Part shown: positions 5,509 to 64,000 of the stretch, piece by piece
Layout of the letters: the number at the start of each line of letters is the position of its first letter
Position numbering within the stretch: position 1 is the first letter of the stretch
From: Branchiostoma floridae
Taxonomy: Eukaryota > Chordata > Leptocardii > Amphioxiformes > Branchiostomatidae
DNA length: 64,000 nucleotides
Assembly (NCBI RefSeq): GCF_000003815.2
Contig: NC_049982.1
Coordinates: 11,223,282-11,287,281 of the forward strand
Reading direction: 5' to 3'
Program-made: the position numbers and the translations under genes
Notes under the pieces: generated by a model
The model's input: only the letters and a program-made list of their open reading frames with translations
Database searches by the model: none
Told to the model about the DNA's origin: nothing

Positions 5509-5679
5509 TAGAACAGTTTTGACATAAATCACAATCACTGCCTTTCCATAACGATCTACTATGTAGCATGCTACAAGCTGATCTCATTTACTTCTGAGTA
5601 GGCAAAAAAAATGGGCGCTGCAGTGTGACAAGCAAAGTGGTTACGCCTGTTTTTGTTCTTTTTCTACCAGCTGGCCACC

Positions 5680-8600
5680 ATGGTCCACACAAGAACAATG
5701 TCTTGTCTGTTAGTGCTTTCGCTCGCTGTCCTGACCAGAGTTGTGGCTGCCCTTGACTGCGCACCCCAGTGCCGATGTTACGGTAACACCACCGACTGCA
5801 GCCACGGTGTCCTTACGGAGTTTCCTCGGATTCAACTCATACCCTCTTCTACAGAAATCCTTCTGATGAATTATAATCGGATTTCAGAGGTGAGACGTAG
5901 TCCTCGGCTTCCTAACCTACTGGAACTGAACCTGGAAGATAACTCCATCACTGGCTTAACACGCCTCGGAATTTTCATTCACAATCCCAACCTTCAGGTT
6001 CTCCGGTTAGGAGGGAACGTGATCTCTACTGTACCCGCTTCGGCTTTCCTTTGGCTGAGCCAACTTGTGAGACTTTTCTTAAATAGAAATACCATCGAAA
6101 CAATAACTGCGTTTGGAAGTAATTCCTTCGTTGGCAGCTTGAAGATGCTCGACTTACAGGACAACAAGCTCACCTCCATCGGCATCGGGACTTTCACGGG
6201 AGTCTCGCTTCTTACGGAGCTCAACCTCTCGTCTAATAACATCTCAACGATAGAAGACGGGAGCTTCAGTCACCTCAAGGAGCTACGCGTCCTGTACCTG
6301 CATTCAAATCATATCGGCGCGTTGAACGATGCAACCTTCCTGGGGATGCCAGCCTTGACTCGTCTGACCTTGGGCCACAACAAGATTCAGACTCTGCCTG
6401 ATATGACCTTCACCGGCTCCACAAACCTGGAGTTTCTGGACCTGTCATTTAACGACATCTCCACAGTCCCGCGGACAGCGTTCTCTGGACTGTACAATCT
6501 TACCACATTGCTCCTGGACAGGAACAACATCAGCTCTATCGAGGACGGAGCGTTTGGTGACCTGGTCAAGCTGCAGTCGTTGGTCCTGAGAGACAATGCG
6601 CTACACAACATGTCGGCATCGACTTTCACCACTCCGGACCTATTGGTGAGCCATATCATTCTCACGACCTTGTTCCGTTTGATAAAATTCTTCATTTTCA
6701 GAAAGCACTGATTAAAACGCTTAAGTAAAAAATAAGATTATCAGAGAATAAAGAGCACATCTGGCCGTTCCAGGAGCTGGACCTGGCTGAGAACAGTCTC
6801 GCGGCTGTCCGGAGGGAGGATTTCGCCAGGCTGACAAAACTGAAGTATCTTCATCTGCATGTGAGTTGATTAATAATAGCACAGTCGTGAATTTCCGTTT
6901 CGTTGTTGTGTTCAATGATCAGAGCAGCCCGGCCGGTGTTGCAAAACCTCTCATTGTCACGGCCTCACGGGCCTTTAGTGGAATGGCTGCTAGAAGACTA
7001 GTGTGATTTAGTCAGGCAAAGAGAAACCTTAAATACAAGTTGATTTTCAATTGGATTTTGATGTAGCTTTTGTTAAGTATTTTTTCTCCCCAGTTGTTTT
7101 CACAATGAAATAAGGCATAACTTTACTTCGCGAAGGCATAAGTTAATTCATACATGTAGCACATTGAGTTAACATGTTATATTGAACCTTTCCACTAAGC
7201 CTGCTGCTATTTGATGATCGGGTTTGTACATGGCAATATAATCATTAAGTAGCTGTTCTTGTAGGGTTTTTTTTGCTTTATACGAAACCTAATCTACATG
7301 TATTTCGGTAGCAACATCAAAATTACACCAGTTCATAACTATCTTCATATCATAAGTTCCTTTCACGACTTTCCTTCTTGACTTGTTTGTATAACCCCGT
7401 ACAGGGTAACGTCATCACACGTGTGGAGGACGGCTCATTCGCCAATCTTAACAACCTTCTTGTGCTGGAAATTTTTGGGAACCGTCTGACTAGTGTGTCA
7501 GCTGCAACATTTGAAGGTACACAATAGACGCTTTCAACGGTTAGGAACAATGAAACAAGCTATAATTACCCTCTATAGATTACAATCATGTGCAGTTTTA
7601 AACGGCAAACCTTACATACCGACCACATACCGATCTGTATGTAAGGTTTGTACATAATTATGTATTAGTAGTAACCTACGTTGCCAACTGGTGTCAAGGC
7701 ATTGGTCAGCAGAAGGTAATGGACCCTTGATAGAAGAAAAACGGGGTGTTCCTCGCTGTTTTCTTGTTGTTTGAATATAAGGCATGACCTTGAGATGTCA
7801 AATTGCTGTTTACATGTTTGAGACGACAGTGGTAAAACCAGTCCATGCCAAGGCTGGGAGAGAAACACGTGACTTAAGGTTTTATCACTGTCATCGGGTC
7901 AAGGGTTGTCGGTGGTGCTTACCTTACCTTACCTTAGGCCTACAGACTCACTGGATGCAAGCCTTTCATCTAAATAAACATTTTAAAAAATAGGTTTCCT
8001 TTTCTCTGAGCCTATATTTCTTAGCTCAGTTTGTACTGAACGGTTATAACTTTTTTTCTTGATAGCACTTTGTGTAGGGAGCAAGTAATTAGATTTTATA
8101 AGTGACGAAGAAATCACATTTAGATACTTCCATATGCTCTACTATATACAGATCGATAGCAGATGATATGCAATTATTATGTGTAACAAATTTACCAGTA
8201 ACGTTTGATACAATATGAGCTATATAGTGTGATTGGGAAGAAACAGACCTATGCTACTCTGACACACACATGGGATGCTGATAGTATACATGATTATCCC
8301 TCAGGCCTGGTATCTGTGGAACACATAGGCATGGGAGGCAGTAACAGTATTGAGAGCTTTCCTGACGACACGTTCTGGCACCTTCCGAAGCTCGCTAGTT
8401 TAGGCCTACTCGGCCTCCCACTCGTGAGCATCAGTGACGCTGTGCTGTCACCCCTACAAAGCTTAAAAAGTGTAAGTAACCCATTCTCCAAGTAGAGGTT
8501 GGTTCGCGGAGATATCTGTATCTATATAGCCGGTATAACCGCCCTTCGGCGTAACACACCAGCTTCGCAGGCGCTAGGCACACGGTGCGGCAGCAGCTGG

Positions 8601-11600: not shown

Positions 11601-13015
11601 ATATTGACACACCAACGAATGACATATGATGATTGCTTTCTGTCTGTACGTGGAAAGTTAACGTGCTGTTTTATCTTTGCACAGCCCAACAACCTCTCCA
11701 TCACCAACGATGGCACCTCCTTCCCAAGGTTCTTCCTCCGTGGCAACTCCAAAGTCGCCTGTTTCAGCTTCTACAATTGTAGGACAAACAGGCCCGTGTG
11801 TTGGCCCATCGGGCGTCACGGTACAGAATGTAAAAGACTCTCGTGCTGAGGTTAAATGGGCCCATGGTGGAAGTCCGGATCTGACAGGATTCGCTATTCA
11901 ATACAAACCCATAGGAGAGAACTCATGGAGCACAACACAACAGGTTCATTTGACCAGCCGTTCCTACCGCATATGGGACCTTCTCCCTAATACCCCCTAC
12001 ATAGCCTGCGTGATTGTTTTCTGCAATGATGTCAAGCTCATGGAACCAGAAGTATCCCATTGTCAGCATTTCACAACGGGAAAGGCAGCGCCTGTGTCAC
12101 AAACAGCAGCCGGTGGGCTGCCACAAGCAGCAGTTGTGGGCCTGGCCGTCGGAGTGCCCCTGTCACTCATCATCCTGGGGCTGGTGGGCGTCATCTTCCT
12201 GAAGATGAAAGGACGCTCCTCTCCCAGTCACGTGGACGGACGCGCGGCCGATCAACCTCACCAACAGGTATTTTCATATGTTGTGTTTTAGTACAGTTTC
12301 CGTAGTTTCCGGTAATGACAACTTTAGTCTCTGACGTATCCACTCTTGGGTTTATGTGTAGTTTGCGGCCCAAGGCGTCAACTTGTCAACCCAACAAAAT
12401 TACTGTCAGGCGCGGTTTTAAAGCCCGACGCGTTTTAAAACTATGATCGACCAGACGCCAGCCAAACCAAGCAGACACAACGTGAAGCAATATTATCGGG
12501 TTAGAAATTCGACTTCTTGGGCCGCAAACTACAGCTATGCCGCCGGGGCAGGTAGACGACGTCGGAGATCGTCAACGCAGGTAACGTTAACTTTACCGGG
12601 TTAGAAAGTGAGAAAGTGGGCATCTTCGGCCATAAACTACACACAACCCCATTGTTGTCCTGCTGGGCCAACCGTGTTCAGCTGGCCGCTAACGCGTGGC
12701 CGTGTCACACTGCAGGACGGGCCGGCCGACTCAGCGGAAGCTCACCGTGATGCCACAGTCGATCCTCCATACAACAAAATCAACGACGATCGGCGCCCAA
12801 GTCAGGAGAACCCCTACATGAACCCCGAGCCCCTGACAGGACGAGGAGCCTCCAGCATAACAAGTTGCTATCTTGAGTTACCTGGTGTGAACAACACTCA
12901 AGAATCAATTGCGATGACCGACAACGTCTACAACAAAGTCAATGATACCGGCTCTGAACAAGAACCAAGTGCGTCGCAGGACGAGGACAATGTTTATATC
13001 AGTATCGTCGGCTAG
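5680..13015 (+). CDS. LRR-FN3 single-pass receptor with ITIM-type tyrosine tail (11 exons)
   Basis: Exons: 5680-6645, 6774-6860, 7405-7516, 8305-8471, 9038-9170, 9760-9883, 10187-10287, 10553-10654, 11016-11163, 11685-12267, 12716-13015. Phases agree throughout and the sum is 940 codons plus TAG. The start at 5680 has a strong Kozak context (CCACCATGG). A pyrimidine tract ending in CAG just before it suggests an upstream UTR exon. Residues 1-24 form a signal peptide. Residues 27-40 are an LRRNT cysteine cluster, followed by about 20 LRRs. An LRRCT (WFTCNCDVLDL...W, then C-x(n)-TCP) covers about 570-630. Then come a Thr/Pro linker, an FN3 domain (about 688-778), a membrane helix (795-818) and a cytosolic tail. 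Tail tyrosines are PPYNKI (860), NPYMNP (875), SCYLEL (893, ITIM consensus), NVYNKV (913) and NVYISI (935). It is a cell-surface recognition or adhesion receptor by architecture. The ligand is unknown and I assign no orthologue. Confidence 0.85.
7606..7650. repeat. Perfect 14-bp-arm hairpin in a receptor intron
   Basis: The arm CAAACCTTACATAC at 7606-7619 is exactly inverted at 7637-7650, leaving a 17-nt loop. It sits in the intron after the third receptor exon. It may be the remnant of a small foldback element. Confidence 0.5.
8484..8690. mobile_element. hAT-like MITE inserted at a splice donor of the receptor gene
   Basis: The terminal inverted repeats are TTCTCCAAGTAGAGGTTGG on the left and the inverse of TTCTCCAATCAGAGGTTGG on the right, both continuing into a GCGGA stretch. 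The sequence TAAGTAACCCA occurs on both sides (8473-8483 and 8690-8700), consistent with a target-site duplication of about 8 bp plus chance extension. No coding sequence is present. The left target copy overlaps the donor GTAAGTAACC of receptor exon 4, so the insertion happened inside the 5' splice site region and left the exon-proximal donor intact. Confidence 0.65.
9428..9634. mobile_element. Foldback MITE in a receptor intron
   Basis: The left end (CTAATACCCCCCTCACATTA, then GGCGAAAATCGATCGAA) is mirrored at the right end by TTCGATCGATTTTCGCC followed by TAATGTGTG, a G-run and TATTAG. Inner arms around CTCTGCGA and GAGGCATGAC also pair. The polyC/polyG stretches belong to the arms. A further inverted pair (CTCCCTCCTCAA near 9388, TTGAGGAGGGAG near 9689) may mark an outer, older boundary. 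Confidence 0.6.
10738..10905 (+). repeat. Fragment of a dispersed repeat family (ATAACTCAAGAAC type)
   Basis: It contains the family signatures ATAACTCAAGAAC, then TGTTTGGACTCCCTAGC and GGAACTGCAG in the same order as the longer copies at 29.7-30.7 kb and 46.1-47.2 kb. It lies in the intron before the LRRCT exon of the receptor gene. It is a truncated, non-coding copy. Confidence 0.5.
12357..12533. mobile_element. 177-bp foldback element in the last receptor intron
   Basis: The left end TGTAGTTTGCGGCCCAAG is exactly inverted at the right end, and the inverted similarity continues inward for about 36 bp to AACCC/GGGTT. A third, diverged half copy (GGGTTAGAAA...GGCCATAAACTACAC) follows at about 12598-12645, so the intron holds one foldback plus a tandem half. 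No coding capacity. Confidence 0.6.
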
Positions 13016-14184: not shown

Positions 14185-15288
14185 AACGTTCACGGTTTAG
14201 GTTCCAAATTAGAGGATATGGATTTTGTGTCTTATGTAAACAAGTTTGACTTCTTCTCGCTCCTAGAAACCTGGAGCACAGACAACACAAAAATTAACAT
14301 TCCTGGCTATAGTCATTTCCACCAATGCAGACAAAAACACAAGCGAGCAAAACGCTCATCGGGGGGTATAATCTTTTTCTACAAGAGTGAGTACAGAAAC
14401 TACGTTAAGAAAGCACAATCCAAATCTACAGATGTTCTCTGGGTACAGATAGACCGAAAGCTACTGGGTCTACCAAAAGACTTGTTCATTTGCTCGGCAT
14501 ATATTAGTCCCAGTGCATCAACCACCCACAAATACGCAGAAAATCATACATTAGAAATCCTAGAAAGCGAAATATCTAGATATAGTTCAGACGGATTTAT
14601 TCTACTTGGCGGCGACTTAAACGCTCGTCTTGGCGATTTACGCGATTATGTAGATGATAGCACTCCCGACGATTGTAATCCAGACAGCTTCCCTTACTCC
14701 TCAGATAGACAACACATGGATAAGGCTCCTCCGAACAAATTCGGCAGACATATCGCTGACCTATGTGTTCAAGCTAGCCTAAGAGTTCTAAACGGGAGGG
14801 TAGCTGGGGATTTACAGGGGAAATTTACCTGCCACCAACCGCGTGGAAGCAGCACAGTTGACTACATAATTTGCAGCCAGTCCCTAATCCCACATATCTT
14901 ATCGTTTCACATAAAGCCATTAACGTTATTCTCTGATCACTGCATGGTTTGGGCTTTAATCCAGTCAAAATCAACAAATCACCCCTGCCAAGAAAGCCAG
15001 AAAATATCAAAAACAAAACCTCTCCCCAAACAGTATCATTGGAACGATAAATCAGCCCAGAAGTTCCTTTCTTCTCTCGGTCAGTCTCATTTTGTCGATA
15101 GACTACATTTTCTTTGTTCTAATGTTCCAAACAACATTAACAGCACTTTGGAAATTGATAATTATGTGTCTGAGTTTGGTTCCATTTTGAGAGAAGCAGG
15201 TGATCAGTCGCTGTGTTTGAAAAGGGTAAGGAAACGCCCACGTAAAAGACAAACAAGAAATGGTTTGACAAAACCTGCATGGAAATGA
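14185..15288 (+). pseudogene. LINE endonuclease (EEP) domain segment, broken by a frameshift at its end
   Basis: This segment of the LINE open frame covers the endonuclease/exonuclease/phosphatase fold. The metal-binding and catalytic signatures (N in NVHGL, E in LLETW, D and N in GGDLN, D in STVDY, DH in LFSDH) are all present, so decay is recent. The frame ends at 15288 because of a one-base shift in the K/R-rich linker. The first in-frame ATG is 14218, inside the domain, and an in-frame TGA lies upstream at about 14143. The true start is therefore lost or in the gap. Confidence 0.8.
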
Positions 15289-17669
15289 AAAGGGAAGTGA
15301 AAAACGTAGCATCTTTACTGGAAAAAAATCCTTCGAATCCAGACATAAGGGGTAGATCCTTCAAAAGTAAAAAAGAATATAAGAAATTGTTAAAAAAGAA
15401 AAAACGAGATTTCCACCAACAAATCATGGATCAATTGTCTTCACTAAGGGAAAGAAACCCGAGTGCATTCTGGAATTTGATAAATAAACTGAAACCAGGA
15501 AAGTCAAATGACGATAACCAGATCACAGAAGAGGAATGGGTAAATCACTTCAAGAATCTTGACAAATTTCCTGATAGCTCTACAGACAACGGCCCTCCCA
15601 GTGAAAACGCTCAAACAGACTTTTCGACCACCACCCCAAATTCGTCAGAACTAGACTCCGCAATTACTTCAGAAGAATTGGACACCGCAATTTCAAAACT
15701 GAAAAACAACAAGTCAAGCGGCAATGACAAAATTTTGAATGAAATGCTAAAATCTGGTAAAATGTTGCTTAAAGAACCTATACTCCACTTGTTTAATACT
15801 TGCTTACAAAATGGTCACTTCCCGCAAGAATGGTCAGTAAGTCATATTGTCCCTATCCACAAGTCAGGAGACACCTCCCTGCCAGATAACTACAGAGGGA
15901 TTTCTATAATCAGTTGTTTAGGGAAATTATTTTCCTCCATTCTAAATTCACGCCTTGTCAAATACGCAGAACACAATAACCTCTTTCAGCCACACCAAGC
16001 AGGCTTCTGACAAAACTTTAGAACTACCGATAATCTGTTTGTCTTAAGTACACTAGTTAGCAAATACCTAAACAAAAACCGTCAACTTTACGCTTGTTTC
16101 ATTGATTTTAGCAAGGCATTTGATTCCGTTTGGAGAAACGGCCTCTTATTTAAATTGAGTAAACTCGGTATTGGTGGTAAATTTCTAAAAGTAATAGAAG
16201 GCATGTATTCAAAGACTATAAACTGCGTTAAATATAAAAATGGATTGACTGAATCTTTTGTTACTAACTGCGGGGTGAGACAAGGGTGTAATTTAAGCCC
16301 TACATTATTTAACCTTTTTCTTAGCGATATTGTATCCCAATTTGACGGTGCTCCTTGTAATCCTCCATTTATGTACAACAAAACTGTCCCTTGCTTGTTG
16401 TATGCTGACGATTTGGTAATTTTTTCTGAGTCCAAACAAGGATTACAGCATTCCTTGAACAATCTGGAAAATTATTGTGCACTTTGGAAATTAAAAGTAA
16501 ATCTTAGGAAAACAAAAATTATTGTATTTACAAAGGGCGGCAGTCTACCTAAAAACTGTTCTCTCCTGTTTGACAATTGTGAAGTAGAAATTGTTACTCG
16601 TTATACTTATCTCGGTATCATAGTGAGCGCAGCTGGCACGTTTAAAGCTAACAACAAATACCTGAGTGGCAAAGGTCTGAAGGCTTTATTCGGAATAAAA
16701 CAATCTTTAGATAAAGCCACCGCCCCATTACCAGTTAGAAACAAACTTTTCGATGCATGTGTCAAACCTATTCTTTATGGCTCAGAAATCTGGGGCGCAT
16801 TAAAAAGCCCTAAAACCTGTCCCATTGAATCTGTTCACCTTAAATTCTGCAAACAAGCACTAAATGTCCCCAGATCAGCATCTAACCTTGCCACAAGAGC
16901 GGAATTAGGGAGGTACCCCATTCAACTGGAAGCCTCCCTGAACGCTATCAAACACTTTCTAAGAATCCGTCAAAACGTGCCAGCTGACAGTCTACAAGCC
17001 GACGCCCTATCTTGTCAATTACAACTAGATGCAAATGGAAACAAGTGCTGGGCGTCCGGTGTTCGTAAGATACTGGAGGAATGCGGTTTTGCCTACATAT
17101 GGAGATCTCAGTTACCTCTAGGAACAAACCTTTCACGTATAACCAACGCCATCAGCCAACGATTAAAGGATATTTACATTCAAATATTTAAAGCCGAAAT
17201 ACACAACAACAACCGGGAAAAATCTTTCGGTAACAAATTACGGACCTATAGATTATTCAAGCCTATTTATAAAGAAGAAGAATATCTGATGGTGAGCAAC
17301 ATACAACACAGAGTGGCTGTAACTAAACTCCGGATTAGTTGCCACAAGTTACATATCGAAACTGGAAGGCACAACCGCACTCCTCTGCAGCATAGAGTCT
17401 GTCAATTTTGTGATCTACAACAGGTAGAAGATGAACAGCATTTTATCTTACACTGTAAATTGTACCATGAGGAACGAATTGCGCTTTATGAACATATCAG
17501 AAAAGAGTTCCCATATTTCAAACATCTTAATGCAACGGATAAATTTCTATTTTTGATGCGCCTAGATAAACCATGTATATCAAACACTATATGTTCTTAT
17601 ATCTACACCTGTACAAAGAAGCGAGAAGATGTCGACCATCCTGTTAGCCTAGTACCTTCAATTAGTTAA
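15279..17669 (+). pseudogene. LINE reverse transcriptase and C-terminal zinc-type segment with one nonsense codon
   Basis: This is one continuous frame apart from TGA at 16008-16010. The linker at the start is lysine-rich, the palm motifs include the catalytic FIDFSKAFDS and YADD aspartates, and the thumb follows. The C-terminal cysteine/histidine motif resembles that of CR1/Jockey-type elements. The nonsense codon falls in the reverse-transcriptase motif that normally reads QAGFR, consistent with a CpG transition. There is no host function. Confidence 0.85.
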
Positions 17670-33000: not shown

Positions 33001-36000
33001 AGGGGCATATCCAACCCTCTTTTCACATTATGTAACTAAACCTAATTACAATGTATTACAGTTACATAATATGAAAAGAGGGATGGGTATTCTAGTTCCT
33101 GAGAGGAAAAACAACGAAGCAATGTTAGGCTTCCAGGCACAAAGAAAGGGCCGTAACCTTCCAGGCAACAAAGCAAATAAATCAATTCAACCAATTCTTC
33201 TCTAAAGGTTTCCCAGAGAGAACCATCTGGATTGACTGATTGCATGTAATTGGTGATACATCAGTCCATGCGTACATCTGCAGAGTTCTGTCTGCCATGT
33301 TAATTGCCTTCTCACTGGATTGAAATGTAATTGCCTCCTAGTAACTGGCATCAAGCCAAACCAAATTATCCTCAGTTCTCTATAGGGCAGTAATTTACAT
33401 GCTGATGAACCTTTTTACATAGAAAACCTTCCCAGTCCATGTTCTGTTCAACTTTGTCTTGGAATATGCTTAAAAGTGGGGTTTTACACATTTTCAGGCT
33501 GCACATAACACTGACCGAGCTTGAAAAAGGAAAGGAAAGTGATCTCTATCCAGTTTTAGCTCACTGAAGAGCTAACGCTAGTTTACCTTTATCCATTGGG
33601 TAACCTATATCCGTTGCTTTTAAAAACAGGATATTTAGGGATATCACGTTGACGGACGTTAGTTTCAAATTGCAATATTTTCAGGATATTGTAGTTCAAA
33701 ACTACTACCCGTCGATTTGATGTGCCTAAATACCCTGCTCTTAAAAGCGAGGGATATAGGTTACCCAACGGATAAAGGTGATCTACCGCTACATGTTGTC
33801 TTCTACTGGTCTTACCTCGGAGTGTCTTCATGTGCTGGACAGCCATGCGCAGGACGGTCAGCTTGTCCAGCTTGCGGGACATGGCATTGCACATGGGGAT
33901 CATAGCCGATAGCTCCATGATGTAACTGTTCATCTTGTCTCGCCGCCGTTTCTCGATCTCACTGTGGTTCTGTCGACTGAACACAGCAGACAGACATTTC
34001 TTTTTTTTTTGTATCGTTCAAGACACATTTTTAAAAATGCATCGTGCAAGTTCAGTACAACCTGGTCACATACATGTACATCGCACTATATATTGCAAAT
34101 TAAGGGAATTCTTGACATTGTCGTCTGGCAAAATTCAGCTGTCTTGGTACGAAAAAGGACTGTCTTCAAGTTGAACCCAGTCATTGGATTGTTCTGTCAG
34201 AGCCTGCTTGAAAATTCAAAGTCAAAATTGTATGGCGACCCTTGACAAATGTGAACTTACCGTCCGTAAAGAAACTGATTATTTATATTCTTGATCGTAA
34301 AGACATTGTGTGGACTTGAACAACCATTGAAGGTGACATCTAGACAAAGGTTGTCATTACAAATGTTTCTGCATGGTTAAGACTACAGTGTCTGCTTATT
34401 TACCTGACATTTTTGCGGCTGTCTGTGTCAGACTGGTCCATCCGGTCCATGTCCATCTGGCTGTCTGCCTCCATACCGCTGAAATAGAGAGGATGTGTCT
34501 TAGAGAGGATGTTAGCTAAGAAAAACATTTCGGCTACACCACTAGGGGCAGATGTAGAGCACTTCCATGTAAAGATAATGTTGCAGCAGCTGGCGAGGAC
34601 CTAAATGTCACAGGCTTTCATCATTGTGTACAATGTCACTTCAAAATATTTGGTTGATCATTTGGTGAAATCACTCTCCATCAACAACAATGTACATAGC
34701 ACAAATATAGAACTGCAATTATAATAGTATGGATTGGTAGGTGTGGAACTGGTCCATGAGGCCACCTACATTGTATGATATTGTGAAATGATAATGCCAG
34801 AATATTCACTTGTTTACTCGCGAGTCTATGATTTACCATGACAGGGAGAGAAAAATATGAGTACCGGTACTACCGACACAGCAAGTCTTTATAATGGATA
34901 AGTTGTGAAATTCTAATCAAATCAATTGATAGTTTATTGTAAATTCTTGTCCACAGGCTAATTGCAGATAACATGAAATGGGACAAATAGTATAGAACAA
35001 TATAGCACAGCAATACTCAAAGCTAAATCTAAATCCTAACCTTTTTTCTGAGACAGTAGAAGATGAAGGATTACTTTTTTTGCAACAATTCTGACAACAT
35101 TGAGCCAGTAAAAGAAATAAAAGTTTAACCCAGCAAACTAAAGGTCACCGAGTTGCATATGTATGGAGTCAACAACATCTTGCCACCAACATGTATGTAA
35201 CCAAACCCTTCATTTGACAACAGTCTCAGGTTTATTTCAACACACATCATTTGCCACTGACAGATAATTAGTTCACTCTCTGCATGGTATCCACTGCGTA
35301 ATTGGCAATTCTACATTCAAAGCAGCTGACAGTTGATAATTAGTTTGTAGGCGGAGAAACTAGATTGACATTAAGTTGGTCCTCATTACTAGAGGGGACA
35401 AAAGAGATGAAAGGGTTTCTTATGTTAGCTATTGCTTTATACCTTTTCAGTAAATGGAATAAAAGTCTGGCACTATTGATGTGCGTCACAGCTTTGAATA
35501 GCCTGGAGTCCAGCCTTGTTTGCTTTAGTACGCTCCAGAAGGTCGCTTGGGAGCGGACTAAAGCGAACACGGCTGGACTCCAGGCTAAGCTCTGAATTCA
35601 CTTCACACTCAATTCTTATCATGTATCTTCTGACTGTCTGAGTTAGCCTGACTAAAATCGTGCTCCTAGTGGCCGGCCCTACAACATTGCCGCTGCCAGC
35701 GAGGGATTGTGTAAACACAGGCTATCCTCTCAGTATCCTGAACTGATACACTGAAACATACGGCACTGTAAAATTTCCATGTCTTCTGCATGTCACTGCC
35801 TGTACAGACTGAAACAAAGGGTTTTTACAACATTACATGTACTTAGTATATGTAGCCATTATTTCTACATGTAAATACAGTCATAAATTCTTGCTGGAAC
35901 CGACAATTCCCCATAACTATGACATAGAAATGATATCATTTGATACTTCCCCAACCTATAATCATTTAGTCATCTGTCCAACTACTAATAGAACCAAGGT

Positions 36001-56271: not shown

Positions 56272-57513
56272 TATTAAACACACCTGTAGGGCCTGTAGCC
56301 TACTGTGAGTGCTTGGCACATGCTTCCTGGTACTCGATAAAAGTGACCAAAAGTACTTGTAGCTATCGGTAGCTAGAGGTTGAACTCTAGAAGAGGTAGT
56401 CTTTTGATTGTCCGCATTCCGGCCATCAGAAAGTGGGCCACACAGTCACAGGAAGGTAGCGATCTCTAAATTCAACGTCACTTTTGCTTGAAACAGTGCT
56501 ATGATAAATGTAACGTTATCTGGTCTCTGGTGTCTTTATTAGTATTTCGAATTCCAATTAAAGAAAATGACAACATCAAATTTCTAACAGCATATTTTAT
56601 TTCTACACTCTGAGCAAAACATGTTTGTGACATTGGAGTGGCTGTGACTTTGAGATGGACACCGATTTTATGTGACTAACGTTAGATTTGTTGCACTGAA
56701 TGGCAACCGTTTTCTATTCTCTCTTTAGTGTTGTATGACTCGTTTCTATGTATACTGGGCCCTCTCGATCAACTTTTAAAAGTTGAAGGGGCTACCAAGC
56801 AATGTCTTGAAGTGAAATAAAACAACATGTGTATACATATGTCAGAACAACCACCGGAAAACAGTAATATCTTGATACATGGAGAGGTTACCATGATGCC
56901 TTGCTACAGTGTGCATGGAGGGCAGTACAAAGTAAGCGCTAATAGAGATTATCACTGGTGTGCGGCCGCAGAAGTCGAATGCTGTAATTCGATGAAATAC
57001 AGTAATCGGCGTCATCTTTTGTACCCAGACAAACGCATAGAGATAGACCTCCCATCTACTGATCGTCATCAGGATGGCCAAACCATACTATCGCAGTTAG
57101 TTGAGTGTACATGACCTTACGAAGTTCTCAAACAGTGCTTTGTCGTGTCAATACCTGCGATAATGCCATACTACGCTCTGAACATATCAAAATTATAACG
57201 ATCGTTTTCCTTTAGGCAATACAAATCCTGCTAGAGTGAACCTTCCTTAATTGAAAATGCTATTGCAGCAGGTCAATGCTGAATTGCATATTACGATAAC
57301 GTTACTGGTACATGTATATCAGATGATGTTCCATCGGCGTCATGAAAAAGGTTTGAGTGATGTAAAATTCATATCTGTGAGTATCCGAATAACTGTAGGA
57401 CGTGTATTACAACATACAGATATTCCCTTCCCCCAAATTCATCAATAGATGCCCCATATATCATCTCAGCTGTTGATGACTGAGAGAGCTTCAGTACGCA
57501 GAACTTGAGGGCA

Positions 57514-58015
57514 TTAGGGAGGATCGTCGAGCACCACAGGCACAGGCGGGTCGGCCCAGATCTGGGCTGCCATCAGCTTCTTGGTCTGGAGAATGAGATC
57601 AGTCCAGGCGGACAGGCTCCATCCGGGCTCGGCAGGGTCTGCAGTAAGAGAAATTGGTTACTATAAGTCGTTAAGAACATAAATCAGTAAAATGATGATG
57701 AAAGTGAATTCGAAGTACCGAAGTTCGTCGTTTTCCGAAACTTGATAACTTGTTCACATGTAATAGAAGCTGGACGACTTCATCTCTAGACAGCTCACCT
57801 TCTTGAACATCAGGTTCTGGTGTCTCGTCACTTGTTGCCCACGGCCAGAAGGTCTCCGTAACTTGGGAGAAGTAGGAGTGACTGGCGGTCCCCAAAGTAC
57901 CTTCTTGCGACTCGGCCTTACCATTGGCAAAATCTAATGCAACACCAGATGAGCAAATATGAATAAAAACACACAACTGTGTATGTCTCGGTGTCTGCCT
58001 GTGTGTGTGTGTGTG

Positions 58016-58055
<40 letters not shown>

Positions 58056-61000
58056 TCTGTCTGTCTGTCTGCCTGTCCGTCTGTCTGTCCGTGTGTGGGG
58101 GGGGGGGGGTGTATACACCATGCATGACACATCTTTGAATTATCCGATATCCTATTTTCTAGTAAAACTTTCTAGGAATCGTTTTTGTCTCAATCTTAAG
58201 CTTACCAGAAAATCGCACCCATACTTTTTGTTGCAAATTGTATCATTCAGATAAACCATTACATACCTGTCTCCGTGTAGTGTTCTGCCTTGCCATCAGA
58301 CCTGTCCGTATTGGCTGACCGGTATGAGGGGAGGCGGTTCATCAGGTCCGTGCACAAACCCTGAAGTGCAGCCCAAACTCCTCCCGTGGGCTCAGGGTCG
58401 GCAGGGTCTAGAGCAAAGATCAAGGGCGAAATTTCACCATCAACACCAAATTCTACGTAGCACAGCAAGGGAATCGCGAACCACGTTAACGTCTTGCCTG
58501 TTTCTACATACAGATGCATTTCTTGTATTAAATGTGGAAGTGAGTGAGTATAACAAGAGACAGATTTGTGTTAAAGTATGACATCTAATCATACTCGCCC
58601 CTAACGCAGAATTCCGACATCATATTTTAAAGTAGAACAACTTACTAGGATGACCGTTTCTCTCTAAATCGTACAAACAAGATCGCACCCTTGATTTTCC
58701 TTGCGATTTGTTTCATTAGATAAACCACGACGTACCTGTCTCCATGTTGTCCTTAGGCTTGTCCGTATTGGCTGACTGGTATAAACCCTGAAATGCAGTC
58801 CAAACTCCTCCCGTGGGCTCAGGGTCGGCAGGGTCTACAGCAAAGATCAAGGGCGAAATTTTACCATCAACGCCAAATTCTACGTGGCACAGGAAAGTTG
58901 ACGTCTTACCTGTTTCTACATACAGATGTATTTCATGTATTGTGTGAGGGAATAATTATAACAGGAGACGGATTTGTGTTAAAGTATAAGATCTAATCAT
59001 AATCGCTCCTAACCCAGCAAACACCTCTATCTATCAATTATCGAAATATATAATATTCTTACCAATGATCTCGTGTGATTCGGCAGGCGGTGTCTCTGAC
59101 CATGACCAGAAGATCACGTGAGACCACGTGACTAAGGACGCATCGGTCTCTGCAGGGTCAGTATTGCCGGCTGGGCGGGGCGGGATGTTAGCGGCGTCTG
59201 CAACACCATAGTGCAGAAATAAACGGGTAGGACGTGCCATATAACCCAATAAACCTGTACCTAATGTATGCTTATAAACTAGACAAACGATACCTCTATG
59301 TTAATTTAACGTTTAATATAAAAGTATCCTGCTGTCTTCGAAGTTCGATGAAACAGTCGAGACTCGAATCCCTAATCCTCCTGACAAATCAAGAATAGAA
59401 ATCAATCAGATGATTAACGAATCGTAAATAACGGAAATGTTTGGTTGGCCGATAAAACTCGTATGGCATAATTATTGTTGCCAGTTGTGTACTTACCCGC
59501 TTTGTTCTGGTCTTCCATTGATATCCAAGCCATGGCGCTTTTATAAACTCCATGGAAGAATTCAGACCACTTCAACGGTCTGGGTCCTGGCCCGGTATAG
59601 TTATCTGAAGGGAAAAAGGAACAACGATGCAATATCGGTCAGTTCACTGCTATATAAAGCAAAGAAACTGACTTTGTCAACGTTACTGTAAATAAAAGAA
59701 CACATAAGAAACAGTTATGCCGAGTTGATTAAACGCTGACCATGCTTTATACTAAAGTCTAGATACTAGATAGCTAAGTTTGTACACAGTTATCTTCAAA
59801 AATTTGAATTATGAACGGATGAGACGTTCTAGCAAATGTCTAAATCTTTCCCCTCACCTGCCGGATCTTCAGCGAAAGCCTCGCGAAGGTAGTCCTTGGT
59901 CCAGTCACGGATATTCCTGGCGAGCTGAAGCCAGGTAATAGGGTGGTAGGGAGGCGCTTCCTCTTCGACAGGAGGTACGTCGAAGTCAAAGTTCGGCAAT
60001 CTCACGTGTTTACAGGCATGTAATAAATAGGAGAACTGCCTGTAGGAGAAAATGTGAAAGTTAGTTTTGATAAGGCTTGGAATCTCTAAAGACTTTGGTT
60101 ACTTTAATGATATGTGAACAATGTTCGTTCCCGAACAGTTTCTCCTCACATACACAATGTATGAGCAACGACACCAGTGTTACCATTATCAACAGGGTGT
60201 AGAGATACGCTACCTTGTATGTCAGCAACAGGAGACGTATAGAAATAATGTTAACAACGTATATACAGCGTTCAGCCTACTGGTATAATGTATTAGATGA
60301 GACTGAACACGATATATCCTTTTTGGATATCTACAGATAACGGTCGGTGTTCTAAAAGGTGGAATTTGATGTGGATGGAGCCAAGGAGAAACTGACAGGC
60401 GTAACGAAGGGACGTCAAGGAGTCCTGAGCTGTCTGTAACCCAGGATAAACAAAGGAAACGTGTATGAAATGTTAGACAAAAACACTCACCATGAGTCGG
60501 ATGAATTGGCCATGTTGACTCCTCCTGGGTGTGTTCCCCCGGCCGTCAGCCTCTTCACCATAGTGTCCCTGTGTTCATCTCTGTACAGATCACAACCCAC
60601 GATTCTGCTGTAGTGGGTCTCGTTGGCAGGACGTAAGTACGCCCGCAGGAATATCTCCTCATTTGCTACCTGTATTCACGGGACGTAAGAATGAAATGAT
60701 AAAGGCCAAATACACCGAAAAAAACTGCAAATGGTTGACACAGTGATACTTTCAAGTCATACTTTTCAATCAAATGTAACAGTTATACGTTGGCGCAACA
60801 TCATATTACTCAGATGTTACTCAGATGATGACATGATCACAACATTAATGCATTGAATCGTTGAGGTGTCGTATGTCAGAATCGAAGAGATGATGTCTTG
60901 CTGTGGGAAAGTCGTGATGCCTAGTATTGTACTCGCAACATTTAGTTTACGCCCACTGAAAGGGTGCGGGTAAACTCAGTGAAAACATATTTTGAGGCCT

Positions 61001-61204
61001 GATAGTTTTACTTACCGGGTAGATTCTCCACTGCTCACTATTGGTGTCATAGACATCAAGCTTATCCAGAAATTCGCGTGCGATGATATCGCGGGGGATG
61101 ATCTGCCTCTCTACAGCTGCCTTCATTACCGCGGAGTACAAACACATACCGCACACGAACAGGTACAGGTGCCATGCTCTCCTCAACAAAAACCCAATCG
61201 GCAT
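57514..61204 (-). CDS. Unrecognised secreted-type protein built from symmetric phase-1 exons (9 exons)
   Basis: Coding exons, 5' to 3': 61016-61204, 60491-60669, 59858-60039, 59497-59604, 59063-59197, 58736-58834, 58267-58407, 57799-57933, 57514-57638. Together they give 430 codons plus TAA, with every junction in phase. The N-terminus has an RR pair and a hydrophobic stretch (residues 11-29, WHLYLFVCGMCLYSAV), a signal peptide or anchor. Exon 2 has NSS and NET sequons and exon 4 an NYT sequon, compatible with secretion. Exons 4-9 all start and end in phase 1 with an Asp codon split at the junction. Most start D-P-A-[DE]-P or similar and carry W/L-rich helical segments (GGVWTAFQGLYQSAN, PGWSLSAWTDLIL). 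I know no family with this pattern and assign no function. Splice and phase consistency make the gene itself convincing. Confidence 0.75.
57999..58110. repeat. TG microsatellite, CTGT tract and G-run
   Basis: A (TG)n tract of about 45 bp with one GC interruption, then (TCTG)n and a run of about 14 G. It lies in the intron between the seventh and eighth exons of the unrecognised gene. Confidence 0.95.
58260..59010 (-). repeat. Tandem duplication of one exon plus its intron inside the unrecognised gene
   Basis: Exons 58267-58407 and 58736-58834 both begin with codons for DPADPEPTGGVW and share the QGL...SANTD core. The adjoining intron sequence is also conserved (AGATCAAGGGCGAAATTT, then CCAAATTCTACGT and TTTCTACATACAGATG in both). 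The unit length is about 430-470 bp. One copy lost or gained about 42 coding bases in frame. Confidence 0.8.
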
Positions 61205-62505
61205 ATTATCGAGTTTTTTTCATCGATTCGCTGCAAAAGTCAAAAAGTTTCGCACGTTGTAAACAAAACACGACCGTTCACTGCGTAAACGTCGTATCGA
61301 GTGATTTGTGACGTTCTAGAACCTCGATGTCAATTGTCGCTATTGTACCTGCGTAGAACAGACTTGTTTATGCCAGATATGCGCAGATGGAACGCATATA
61401 ACTATGGTACTTAGAAGAACGTGTTTCTGCATGTAGAGAAATATCCAATGGTGAGAAATAATTGGGTGCGTCTTCCCGTGATTTTCCTACAGCTAGCGAA
61501 ACTTTTGTCCGAGCATTTCTTCGTACATTGGCACTAGACGTTCAATCGGACGCGAATTATTGTGTGCATTTTTCAGGAACTCTCATGTTTTAGACTCCGG
61601 AGTCACGTTACCAACTTGCTTTACCGGCGCATACTATAACGGTGCCTCTTGAATAAACAGTTATATATAGATAATCACTGCATGTAAGTTGAGATCTCCC
61701 ATGTCACTATCGTCAACTACTACCGTGCTATCTGTATTGTGATAGATTGGTAATTAGTAAAACAAGACACATTTGTGCGATATGATTATAAATGATGGTA
61801 ACTTGTGTGATATGATTGTAAGCCTTTAAAATGTTAGCCTAACTGCCCTACCATGTTAAGTTTTTAATGTGTGTGTAAATGTTTTTAATGCCTAAATACG
61901 CAATTCAGCGCCTTAGGGCGCTGCAATGTATTTAGAGGTTGTTGAAACAATCAATAAACGTTATATATATAAAAACTAGTCTTGGACAGTCTTAAACTAC
62001 ATATCCCTCCATCTCCTGTTGCGCTCAGGTGTAATGTTGCATCTGACGTCACATCCCGTCTTGCTAATTGCCAACCACGCGACAACCTTGAACACTTCCA
62101 TGTTAAATTACTACTGCAGCGGTAGTTTTTTTTTTATTTACTTCGGTGAGGTACATGATCTATTGTTCGCTTCGTGGTCGTAGAAATGCTAGTAGCCGAA
62201 GTAACAATTAGATGAAATATGAGCAGGTCATATCTATCAAGCTATGAGTATATATTTGAAATATCTTAATTAGTACGAATTCAACAGACAAATGCTGCTA
62301 ATAATCACAACCATAGCAGCGCACTAGATAAATAAAGTTCCCGAAATGAACTGTGCCTTTCTTTAATTAACTTACACCGGTGACAATGTTGATATTCTTA
62401 TCATTTGTGTATGAATCATGTAAACGATACTTCCATTTATCATATCAATGATGTCATATAGTCTGTGTAACGCAAATTCGGCCATCCAGGGCTGAAATTT
62501 GTTTA
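61205..62505. other. Upstream region of the unrecognised gene
   Basis: The region just above the start codon is comparatively CpG-rich to about 61330 and probably holds the promoter and 5' UTR. A TGACGTCA CRE palindrome lies at 62044-62051. No coding exon is seen. Confidence 0.4.
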
Positions 62506-63039: not shown

Positions 63040-64000
63040 ACTTACGTAAAATCGGCTACTATACGGCTTGTAGAGCGATATGCTACTTATCTAAACGTGG
63101 CCCGTGAACTTGTGAGGCCAATTTAGATAAATTATACCCTAACGTATTCAATACAAGTTGACAAGTATCAAATCTTACGGGCCGGATTTAATTAATGAAC
63201 TAGAGCGAACTAACTGATAGGAAATACGCAAGCAAGGGGGGGGGGGCATAAAATCGGCTGCTAAACTGCTTGTAGAGCAATCTGCTGCTTATCTAAACGT
63301 TGCCCGTGAACTTCTAAGTGCAATTTAGATAGCTTATACTCTAACGTATTCAATACAAGTGTCAGAACTCACGGGCCGGATTTAATTAATGAACAAGAGG
63401 GGAACTAACTGATAGGAAATACTTAACCAAGGGGGGGGGGGCGTAAAATCGGCTGCTAAAATGCTTGTATTGCAATCTGCTGCTTATCTAAACGTGGCCC
63501 GTGAACTTGTAAGTGCTATTTAGATAGTTTATACCCTAACGTATTCAATACAAGTATCAAATCTTACGGGCCGGATTCAATTAATAAACTAGAGGGGAAC
63601 TAACTGATAGGACATATGCAAGCAGAGGGGCGGGGGCGTGAAATCGGCTGCTATATGGCTTGTATTGCAATCTGCTGCTTATCTAAACGTGGCCCGTGAA
63701 CTTGTAAGTGTAATTTAGATAGCTTATACCCTAACGTATTCAATACAAGAATCGAAACTTGCGGGCCGGATTTGATTAATGAACTAATTGAGTTGAAGCA
63801 GTTTCTACACTGAGCGAAGAGAGCGCAAAAATCGGCTGCTAAACTGCTCTTAGAGCAATCTACTGCTTATTTAAACGTTGCCCGTGAACTTGTAAGTGCA
63901 ATTAAGATAGCTTATACCCTAACGTATTTAATACAAGTATCGAATCTTACGGGCCGGATTTGATTAATGAACTAATTGAGTTGAAGCAGTTTCTACACTG
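63040..64000. repeat. Satellite array, at least five units of about 188-201 bp, cut by the window end
   Basis: Units start at ATCGGCT 63051, 63252, 63448, 63643 and 63831 (spacings 201, 196, 195, 188). Each contains GCTTATCTAAACGT, CCGTGAACTT, ACCCTAACGTATTCAATACA and CGGGCCGGATT. Variation is mostly in the G-run between units; the fourth and fifth units share AGTTGAAGCAGTTTCTACAC at their 3' ends. No coding frame. The array continues beyond the right edge. Confidence 0.95.

Follow-up and report, generated by a model that had tools for sequence, protein, structure and literature searches.

We analyzed a predicted nine-exon gene that encodes 430 residues on the minus strand (61204-57514) of a 64-kb stretch of the Branchiostoma floridae genome (C4:11223282-11287281, hereafter the window; coordinates given without a chromosome label are positions within it). 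Our data show that a three-exon core, with introns in phases 0, 2, and 1, is common to three subfamilies on three chromosomes, and that it is followed by a tail of short exons bounded by phase 1. Relatives of the gene in the same genome differ by doubled or dropped tail exons. We consider it probable that this is a protein-coding gene from an uncharacterized multigene family, in which the core is homogenized by gene conversion and a frame-safe tail diversifies, perhaps within a secretory multivalent protein.

Gene model and distant relatives

The initial annotation of this stretch had joined nine exons in perfect phase, and both the coordinates and the phases were borne out by our exon-chaining script. 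The script is a splice-plus-codon dynamic program that uses generic splice matrices and codon weights trained on other frames of the window. All eight introns are GT-AG, with phases 0, 2, 1, 1, 1, 1, 1, and 1. The first run scored 85.9, a value that none of 60 dinucleotide-preserving shuffles reached (mean 7.1, standard deviation 3.0, maximum 15.6). It deviated from the nine-exon model by a later ATG and by other acceptors at exons 5 and 8, since the acceptors belonging to these two exons scored below threshold; once the acceptor threshold was lowered and the ATG fixed, the program gave exactly the nine exons. On the plus strand of this stretch, no chain scored above 19.7. In addition, the GC content at third codon positions of the exons is 0.615 versus an intron GC content of 0.385, an in-frame TGA lies a few codons 5' of the ATG, and AATAAA signals are found 3' of the gene at 56601 and 56540.

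Exon 1 (61016-61204, phase 0-0) encodes a hydrophobic stretch at residues ~12-31 that is preceded by basic residues and resembles a signal or signal-anchor sequence. The core continues through exon 2 (60491-60669, phase 0-2), which has homologous exons on C16 and C7, and exon 3 (59858-60039, phase 2-1), which also carries the first predicted Trp-containing helix. The protein has an isoelectric point of 4.66 with an acidic tail, three sequons, and 17 Trp among its 430 residues (4.0%). Two cysteines, C89 and C132, are kept in the three subfamilies. Together with the N-terminal hydrophobic stretch, these cysteines make a secreted or membrane-anchored protein plausible, and the three sequons are likewise suggestive of an extracellular location.

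Relatives were sought by DNA search and protein census in one genome (513 Mb in 431 contigs). The census with the full window protein returned 48 matches, all of which were scored as candidates, with 46 on C4 and 2 on C16. At both C16 loci, exon 2 and exon 3 have matches in the correct order, with ~30% identity in exon 2 (E ~1e-6 within 9.5 kb). Six exons with intron phases 0, 2, 1, 1, and 1 are predicted for the C16 gene at 13038437-13041285, corresponding to the same core, two 1-1 modules, and a terminal exon. A census seeded from C16 yielded 20 matches (12 on C16, 6 on C4, 1 on C18, and 1 on C7), and the C7 match (E = 0.33) led to a locus whose exons 1-3 are in phases 0, 2, and 1. Local exon matches at this locus occur in order (E = 5e-5 and 1e-4) within a 10-kb stretch. 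Since a census seeded from C7 recovered nothing beyond its own locus (2 matches), the link of C7 to the family rests on the C16-seeded match, the ordered exon matches, the common phases, and a shuffle test. The donor of exon 3 in the C7 gene is weak (-1.0), and we do not rely on the tail predicted for this gene.

These distant relatives on two further chromosomes show 27-30% identity and retain the first three intron phases as well as the two cysteines. The three cores (window, C16, and C7) are related, in that each pairwise score was reached by 0 of 1,000 shuffles, and they have 25 invariant columns in common, among them Y62, C89, W123, C132, and W159. A clear match to a known non-modular family, which would have spoken against the modular gene initially proposed, did not appear in either of two databases. 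The window protein and the members of family alignments A2 and A3 hit 0 Pfam families up to E = 10, the C16 protein hit none up to E = 1, and a PDB sequence search with the family cores gave no match (best E 0.099, 0.41, and 0.097). In the literature, which was not searched by sequence, no paper was recognized as describing the gene family.

Tail modules and the paralog cluster on C4

Five paralogs, found by DNA search and census, are arranged in tandem at C4:10.435-10.461 Mb, on the opposite strand and ~0.82 Mb from the window gene. They are designated g1 to g5 and lie at C4 10435407, 10441129, 10446331, 10451544, and 10457047, respectively. The fetched stretches contain no run of N between the end of a gap in g2 (10442289) and 10489999, so g3-g5 are not joined across gaps. 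A block just upstream of the window gene (61205-61408, minus strand), probably a 5' untranslated region or promoter, is conserved with the cluster genes (blastn, 61408-60999 at 94.7% to g3 and 61398-60999 at 94.3% to g4).

The tail of the window gene comprises module 4 (exon 4, 59497-59604), module 5 (exon 5, 59063-59197), a first and shortened copy of module 7 (exon 6, 58736-58834), a second copy of module 7 (exon 7, 58267-58407), module 8 (exon 8, 57799-57933), and module 9 (exon 9, 57514-57638), all on the minus strand. Its line-up is thus 4, 5, 7, 7, 8, 9. The line-up of g4 and g5 is 4, 5, 7, 8, 8, 9, which g2 matches with its module 7 out of frame, and that of g3 is 5, 7, 8, 9, module 4 being missing. 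An 8-residue match in intron 3 of g3 (E = 0.050) was too weak to be accepted as a module 4 remnant, and in g1 no tail is recognizable beyond a 10-residue fragment. Collectively, the five genes with a tail (the window gene and g2-g5) show three line-ups, and module 7 is doubled only in the window gene. The variable module number that had been anticipated among orthologs was therefore found, although in paralogs of the same genome. Exon 5 likewise varies in length among the genes in multiples of three (135, 159, 177, 177, and 183 nucleotides).

The modules are 33-47 residues long, carry no Pfam domain, and are free of Cys except for one in module 7. Exons 4-9 had been described as symmetric 1-1 modules, and this holds for five exons in a row (4-8); exon 9 is entered in phase 1 and is terminal, running to the stop. 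As proposed, a split Asp codon stands at the start of each of the six tail exons; the D-P-A-[DE]-P motif is the opening of only three of them (exons 6, 7, and 9). Because both ends of a symmetric exon are in phase 1, its doubling, loss, or skipping leaves the reading frame intact. A Trp/Leu-rich helix had also been ascribed to the modules. At least one Trp is present in each of the six tail exons, and a helix was predicted in exon 7, the sole tail module that was folded. Modeled alone with AlphaFold2 without an alignment, exon 7 gave one helix at residues 9-39 (mean predicted local distance difference test score, pLDDT, 68.1), with a pLDDT of 90 over residues 11-20 followed by 73 and 53 in the next two blocks. 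Under the same setting, exon 3 ends in a predicted helix at residues 36-56 (mean pLDDT 69.8).

The initial suggestion that the family evolves by exon duplication is backed, for the 1-1 exons, by the three line-ups and by tandem repeats at exons 6 and 7. The unit that holds exon 6 and its intron flanks (58613-59017, minus strand) and the unit that holds exon 7 and its flanks (58143-58609, minus strand) are 73% identical over 472 columns (blastn), and a second instance of tandem module duplication is seen in the two copies of module 8 in g2, g4, and g5. Between exons 6 and 7, 92 of 99 aligned bases agree; the gaps (30, 6, and 6 nucleotides) are all multiples of three, whereas outside the exons this holds for 3 of 11. 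The ~60 bp of intron immediately 5' of exons 7 and 6 (58408-58468 and 58835-58895) match each other as closely as the exons do, and they are open in the exon frame. We rejected an additional coding stretch at this position: it is open in both units with a 15-nucleotide in-frame gap, its 2 synonymous versus 5 nonsynonymous differences lend no support, and the alternative acceptors of the farther pair score below threshold.

Kinship among the modules is otherwise slight. Only 5 of 36 pairs gave p < 0.05, and it was strong only for exons 6 and 7. In 500 shuffles, the summed likeness of six modules (the C-terminal half of exon 3 and exons 4, 5, 7, 8, and 9) was attained 26 times, and 171 times when the junction residues were removed, which is no significant kinship. 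On the basis of this test we rejected modules 4-9 as copies of one unit beyond the 6/7 pair. By sequence comparison, the tail modules are mostly separate types, and to call the exons interchangeable, as was done at the outset, was too strong, given that each type holds its place in the order and that only exons 6 and 7 are alike beyond the junction residues.

A less likely, though possible, explanation is that the tail is no more than a rapidly evolving acidic segment, disordered for the most part, in which frame-keeping exon changes are tolerated and the modules have no function as modules. The absence of mutual likeness beyond the junctions is consistent with this explanation, as are the low to middling confidence of the single-exon models and the exon 6/7 differences, all of which are nonsynonymous. 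Within the cluster, moreover, tail exons differ about as much as tail introns (6.2% versus 7.4%). However, nonsynonymous changes were rarer than synonymous ones in all seven tail comparisons, both between the window gene and g2, g3, g4, and g5 (p = 3.8e-5, 0.0087, 0.0046, and 1.4e-4) and among g3-g5 (p = 0.0034, 0.0034, and 0.016), where the pairs are non-independent and fractional counts were rounded. In addition, the window gene and the cluster agree in the order of their modules and in the segments that bear Trp. Purifying selection was also seen, with the same caveats on pairs and counts, in the cores of the window gene versus g3, g4, and g5 (p = 0.042, 0.0063, and 2.2e-5), and the selection on codons, together with the intron phases, argues that both core and tail are translated.

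Near-identical cores beside diverged tails

Exons 1-3 of the window gene are 93-100% identical to those of the cluster in a whole-locus MAFFT alignment, from which the rows past intron 5 were dropped because the doubled exon had misplaced exons 6-8. Intron identities were taken from pairwise alignments with shuffled controls in place of the MAFFT figures, and are 55-72% between the window gene and the cluster, compared with 49-55% for shuffled sequence. Synonymous divergence from the cluster is 0.05-0.10 in the core (g3-g5) and 0.29-0.40 in the tail (0.54 for g2), with a Fisher p of 3.7e-6 to 2.6e-5 for the contrast. The best matches form a mosaic in which different window exons are closest to different paralogs: exon 1 is the same as that of g3 (0 differences in 189 bases), and the first 132 bases of exon 2 are the same as in g2, with 141 of 143 aligned bases of the adjoining intron also unchanged. 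The cluster genes, too, are closer to one another in their 5' half (differences of 2.2% in core exons and 3.3% in introns 1-2) than in their 3' half (6.2% in modules and 7.4% in the introns of the modules). From these patterns we infer that the front part of the gene is probably kept alike by ectopic gene conversion between the window locus and the cluster.

Strong constraint that extends to synonymous sites could also explain the near-identity of the core, and it would produce what is observed at the edges, where the likeness is confined to the exons and ~200 bp upstream and stops close to the splice sites. We nevertheless regard constraint as an unlikely explanation. The 2.2% difference among the core exons of the cluster genes, set against 3.3% for introns 1-2, shows no special freezing of synonymous sites in the cluster, and the synonymous divergence of the cluster core (0.04-0.06, g3-g5) is no lower than that of these introns. 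The exact identity of exon 1 to g3, and of the start of exon 2 to g2 along with nearly all of the adjoining intron bases, also argues against it.

A more far-reaching version of the conversion reading is a two-speed family, in which conversion would keep a common N-terminal anchor across 0.8 Mb while the frame-safe tail changes in number and sequence, giving a repertoire of one anchor and many tails. Since the likeness tracks exons and not introns, such conversion would perhaps proceed via spliced complementary DNA. This version is speculative, and we hold it to be improbable. If true, it would constitute a genome-encoded repertoire, for instance for recognition in immunity or fertilization.

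Several observations weigh against a translated family with a converted core and a diversifying tail. Paralog g1 is broken in exon 3 and g2 in exon 7, and all four paralogs in which the exon 2 donor is readable (g1, g3, g4, and g5) have the weak sequence GTTGGT (score -0.6), compared with GTGAGT in the window gene. In the alignment, the C16 and C7 cores contain none of the three sequons of the window gene. Purifying selection was not significant in the g4-g5 core comparison (p = 0.092), and the exon 6/7 pair, with 0 synonymous and 8 nonsynonymous differences, gives no signal of it (neutral p = 0.12). The synonymous divergence of module 7 (0.08) is near that of the core, so the contrast between core and tail is not clean. 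Finally, the best match of window exon 2 ends at the assembly gap in g2, where a misassembly could mimic conversion.

Classic exon shuffling, with mobile tail modules common to unrelated genes, would account for the 1-1 symmetry, but we judge it highly improbable. Modules 4-9 occur only in the family's C4 loci among the matches of the full-protein census, and no family module was found in otherwise unrelated genes in the full-protein and C16-seeded censuses of this one genome. Two finds would suit mobile modules: on C18, a lone copy of a C16 module that is preceded by AG and followed by GT, and at another place on C16, a broken copy. The C18 sequence (C18:10615820-10617467) is a ~1.7-kb copy (72% identity) of the 3' portion of the C16 relative and includes one module and a downstream repeat. 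It was rejected as a shuffled module because the module sits inside this larger copied segment, in which the script yielded no convincing host gene. That the gene is a pseudogene or a chain of open frames assembled by chance, to which the broken exons of two of the five cluster paralogs might point, is extremely unlikely in view of the shuffle test, the codon-level purifying selection, and the intron phases kept in distant relatives.

Proposed mechanism, surroundings, and known systems

In the mechanism that we propose, ectopic gene conversion would hold the core alike at the two loci, and the tail would escape it and diversify. With less certainty, the N-terminal hydrophobic stretch may let the protein enter the secretory pathway and become a single-pass or a secreted product, and the two kept cysteines may form a disulfide in the core. 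The acidic tail could be a flexible chain in which every short helix with its Trp acts as a weak binding site, a suggestion that we make tentatively; the number of exons might then set the valency of a multivalent tail arm.

Other features were noted around the gene and its relatives. Just past the gene, on the opposite strand, lies a plus-strand open frame of 95 residues (56827-57111) without a Pfam match, and a ~195-bp unit is repeated in tandem in 4.8 copies at 63045-63974, almost to the window end. Elsewhere in the window, a basic helix-loop-helix exon of a BMAL/ARNTL-like clock gene was found at 33592-33984 (minus strand; best PDB match ARNT-like protein 1, E = 2.7e-25; Pfam HLH). A frame rich in leucine-rich repeats (LRR; 5653-6708, plus strand) is followed by a frame with an fn3 domain (11677-12288, plus strand), and the two are perhaps one LRR-fn3 membrane protein gene. 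Remains of a retroelement of the type without long terminal repeats, with endonuclease and reverse transcriptase frames, occupy 14218-17666 (plus strand). In the cluster, exons of an NNMT/PNMT/TEMT-type methyltransferase lie between g1 and g2 (C4:10438440-10440022; Pfam E = 6.5e-52).

Extracellular mosaic proteins are built from phase-1 modules (Patthy's rule), and the gene resembles them in that an N-terminal hydrophobic segment is followed by symmetric phase-1 exons in a row. It differs from them in that its modules are 33-47 residues long, nearly Cys-free, without Pfam domains, and mostly unlike each other.

A published report describes lancelets as having the fastest exon shuffling among metazoans, with 941 candidate novel domains and a 1-1 bias of ~28% for non-shuffled, 40% for shuffled, and 51% for shuffled domain exons (PMC4284660). 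At the 28% rate, the chance of five 1-1 exons in a row is 0.0017, or ~0.006 if exons 6 and 7 count once, and the family therefore fits the published pattern. The likeness lies in the expansion of internal 1-1 exons. Unlike the shuffling described there, the family shows doubling and loss within itself, and spread to other genes was not found. Paralogs under gene conversion, as presented in another report (PMC3728101), resemble the family in having islands of divergence beside homogenized stretches. Here, by contrast with those families, it is exons 1-3 that are homogenized, and divergence is found in a tail whose exon number changes as well.

The family is thus a further example of a mode of evolution already known to be common in lancelets, and on its own it reveals no new kind of system. 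It is, however, a small and well-bounded family in which exon doubling, exon loss, and exon-limited homogenization stand side by side in one genome, and with its few members it allows the claim in the literature that traffic of 1-1 exons is extreme in lancelets to be tested on one gene family.

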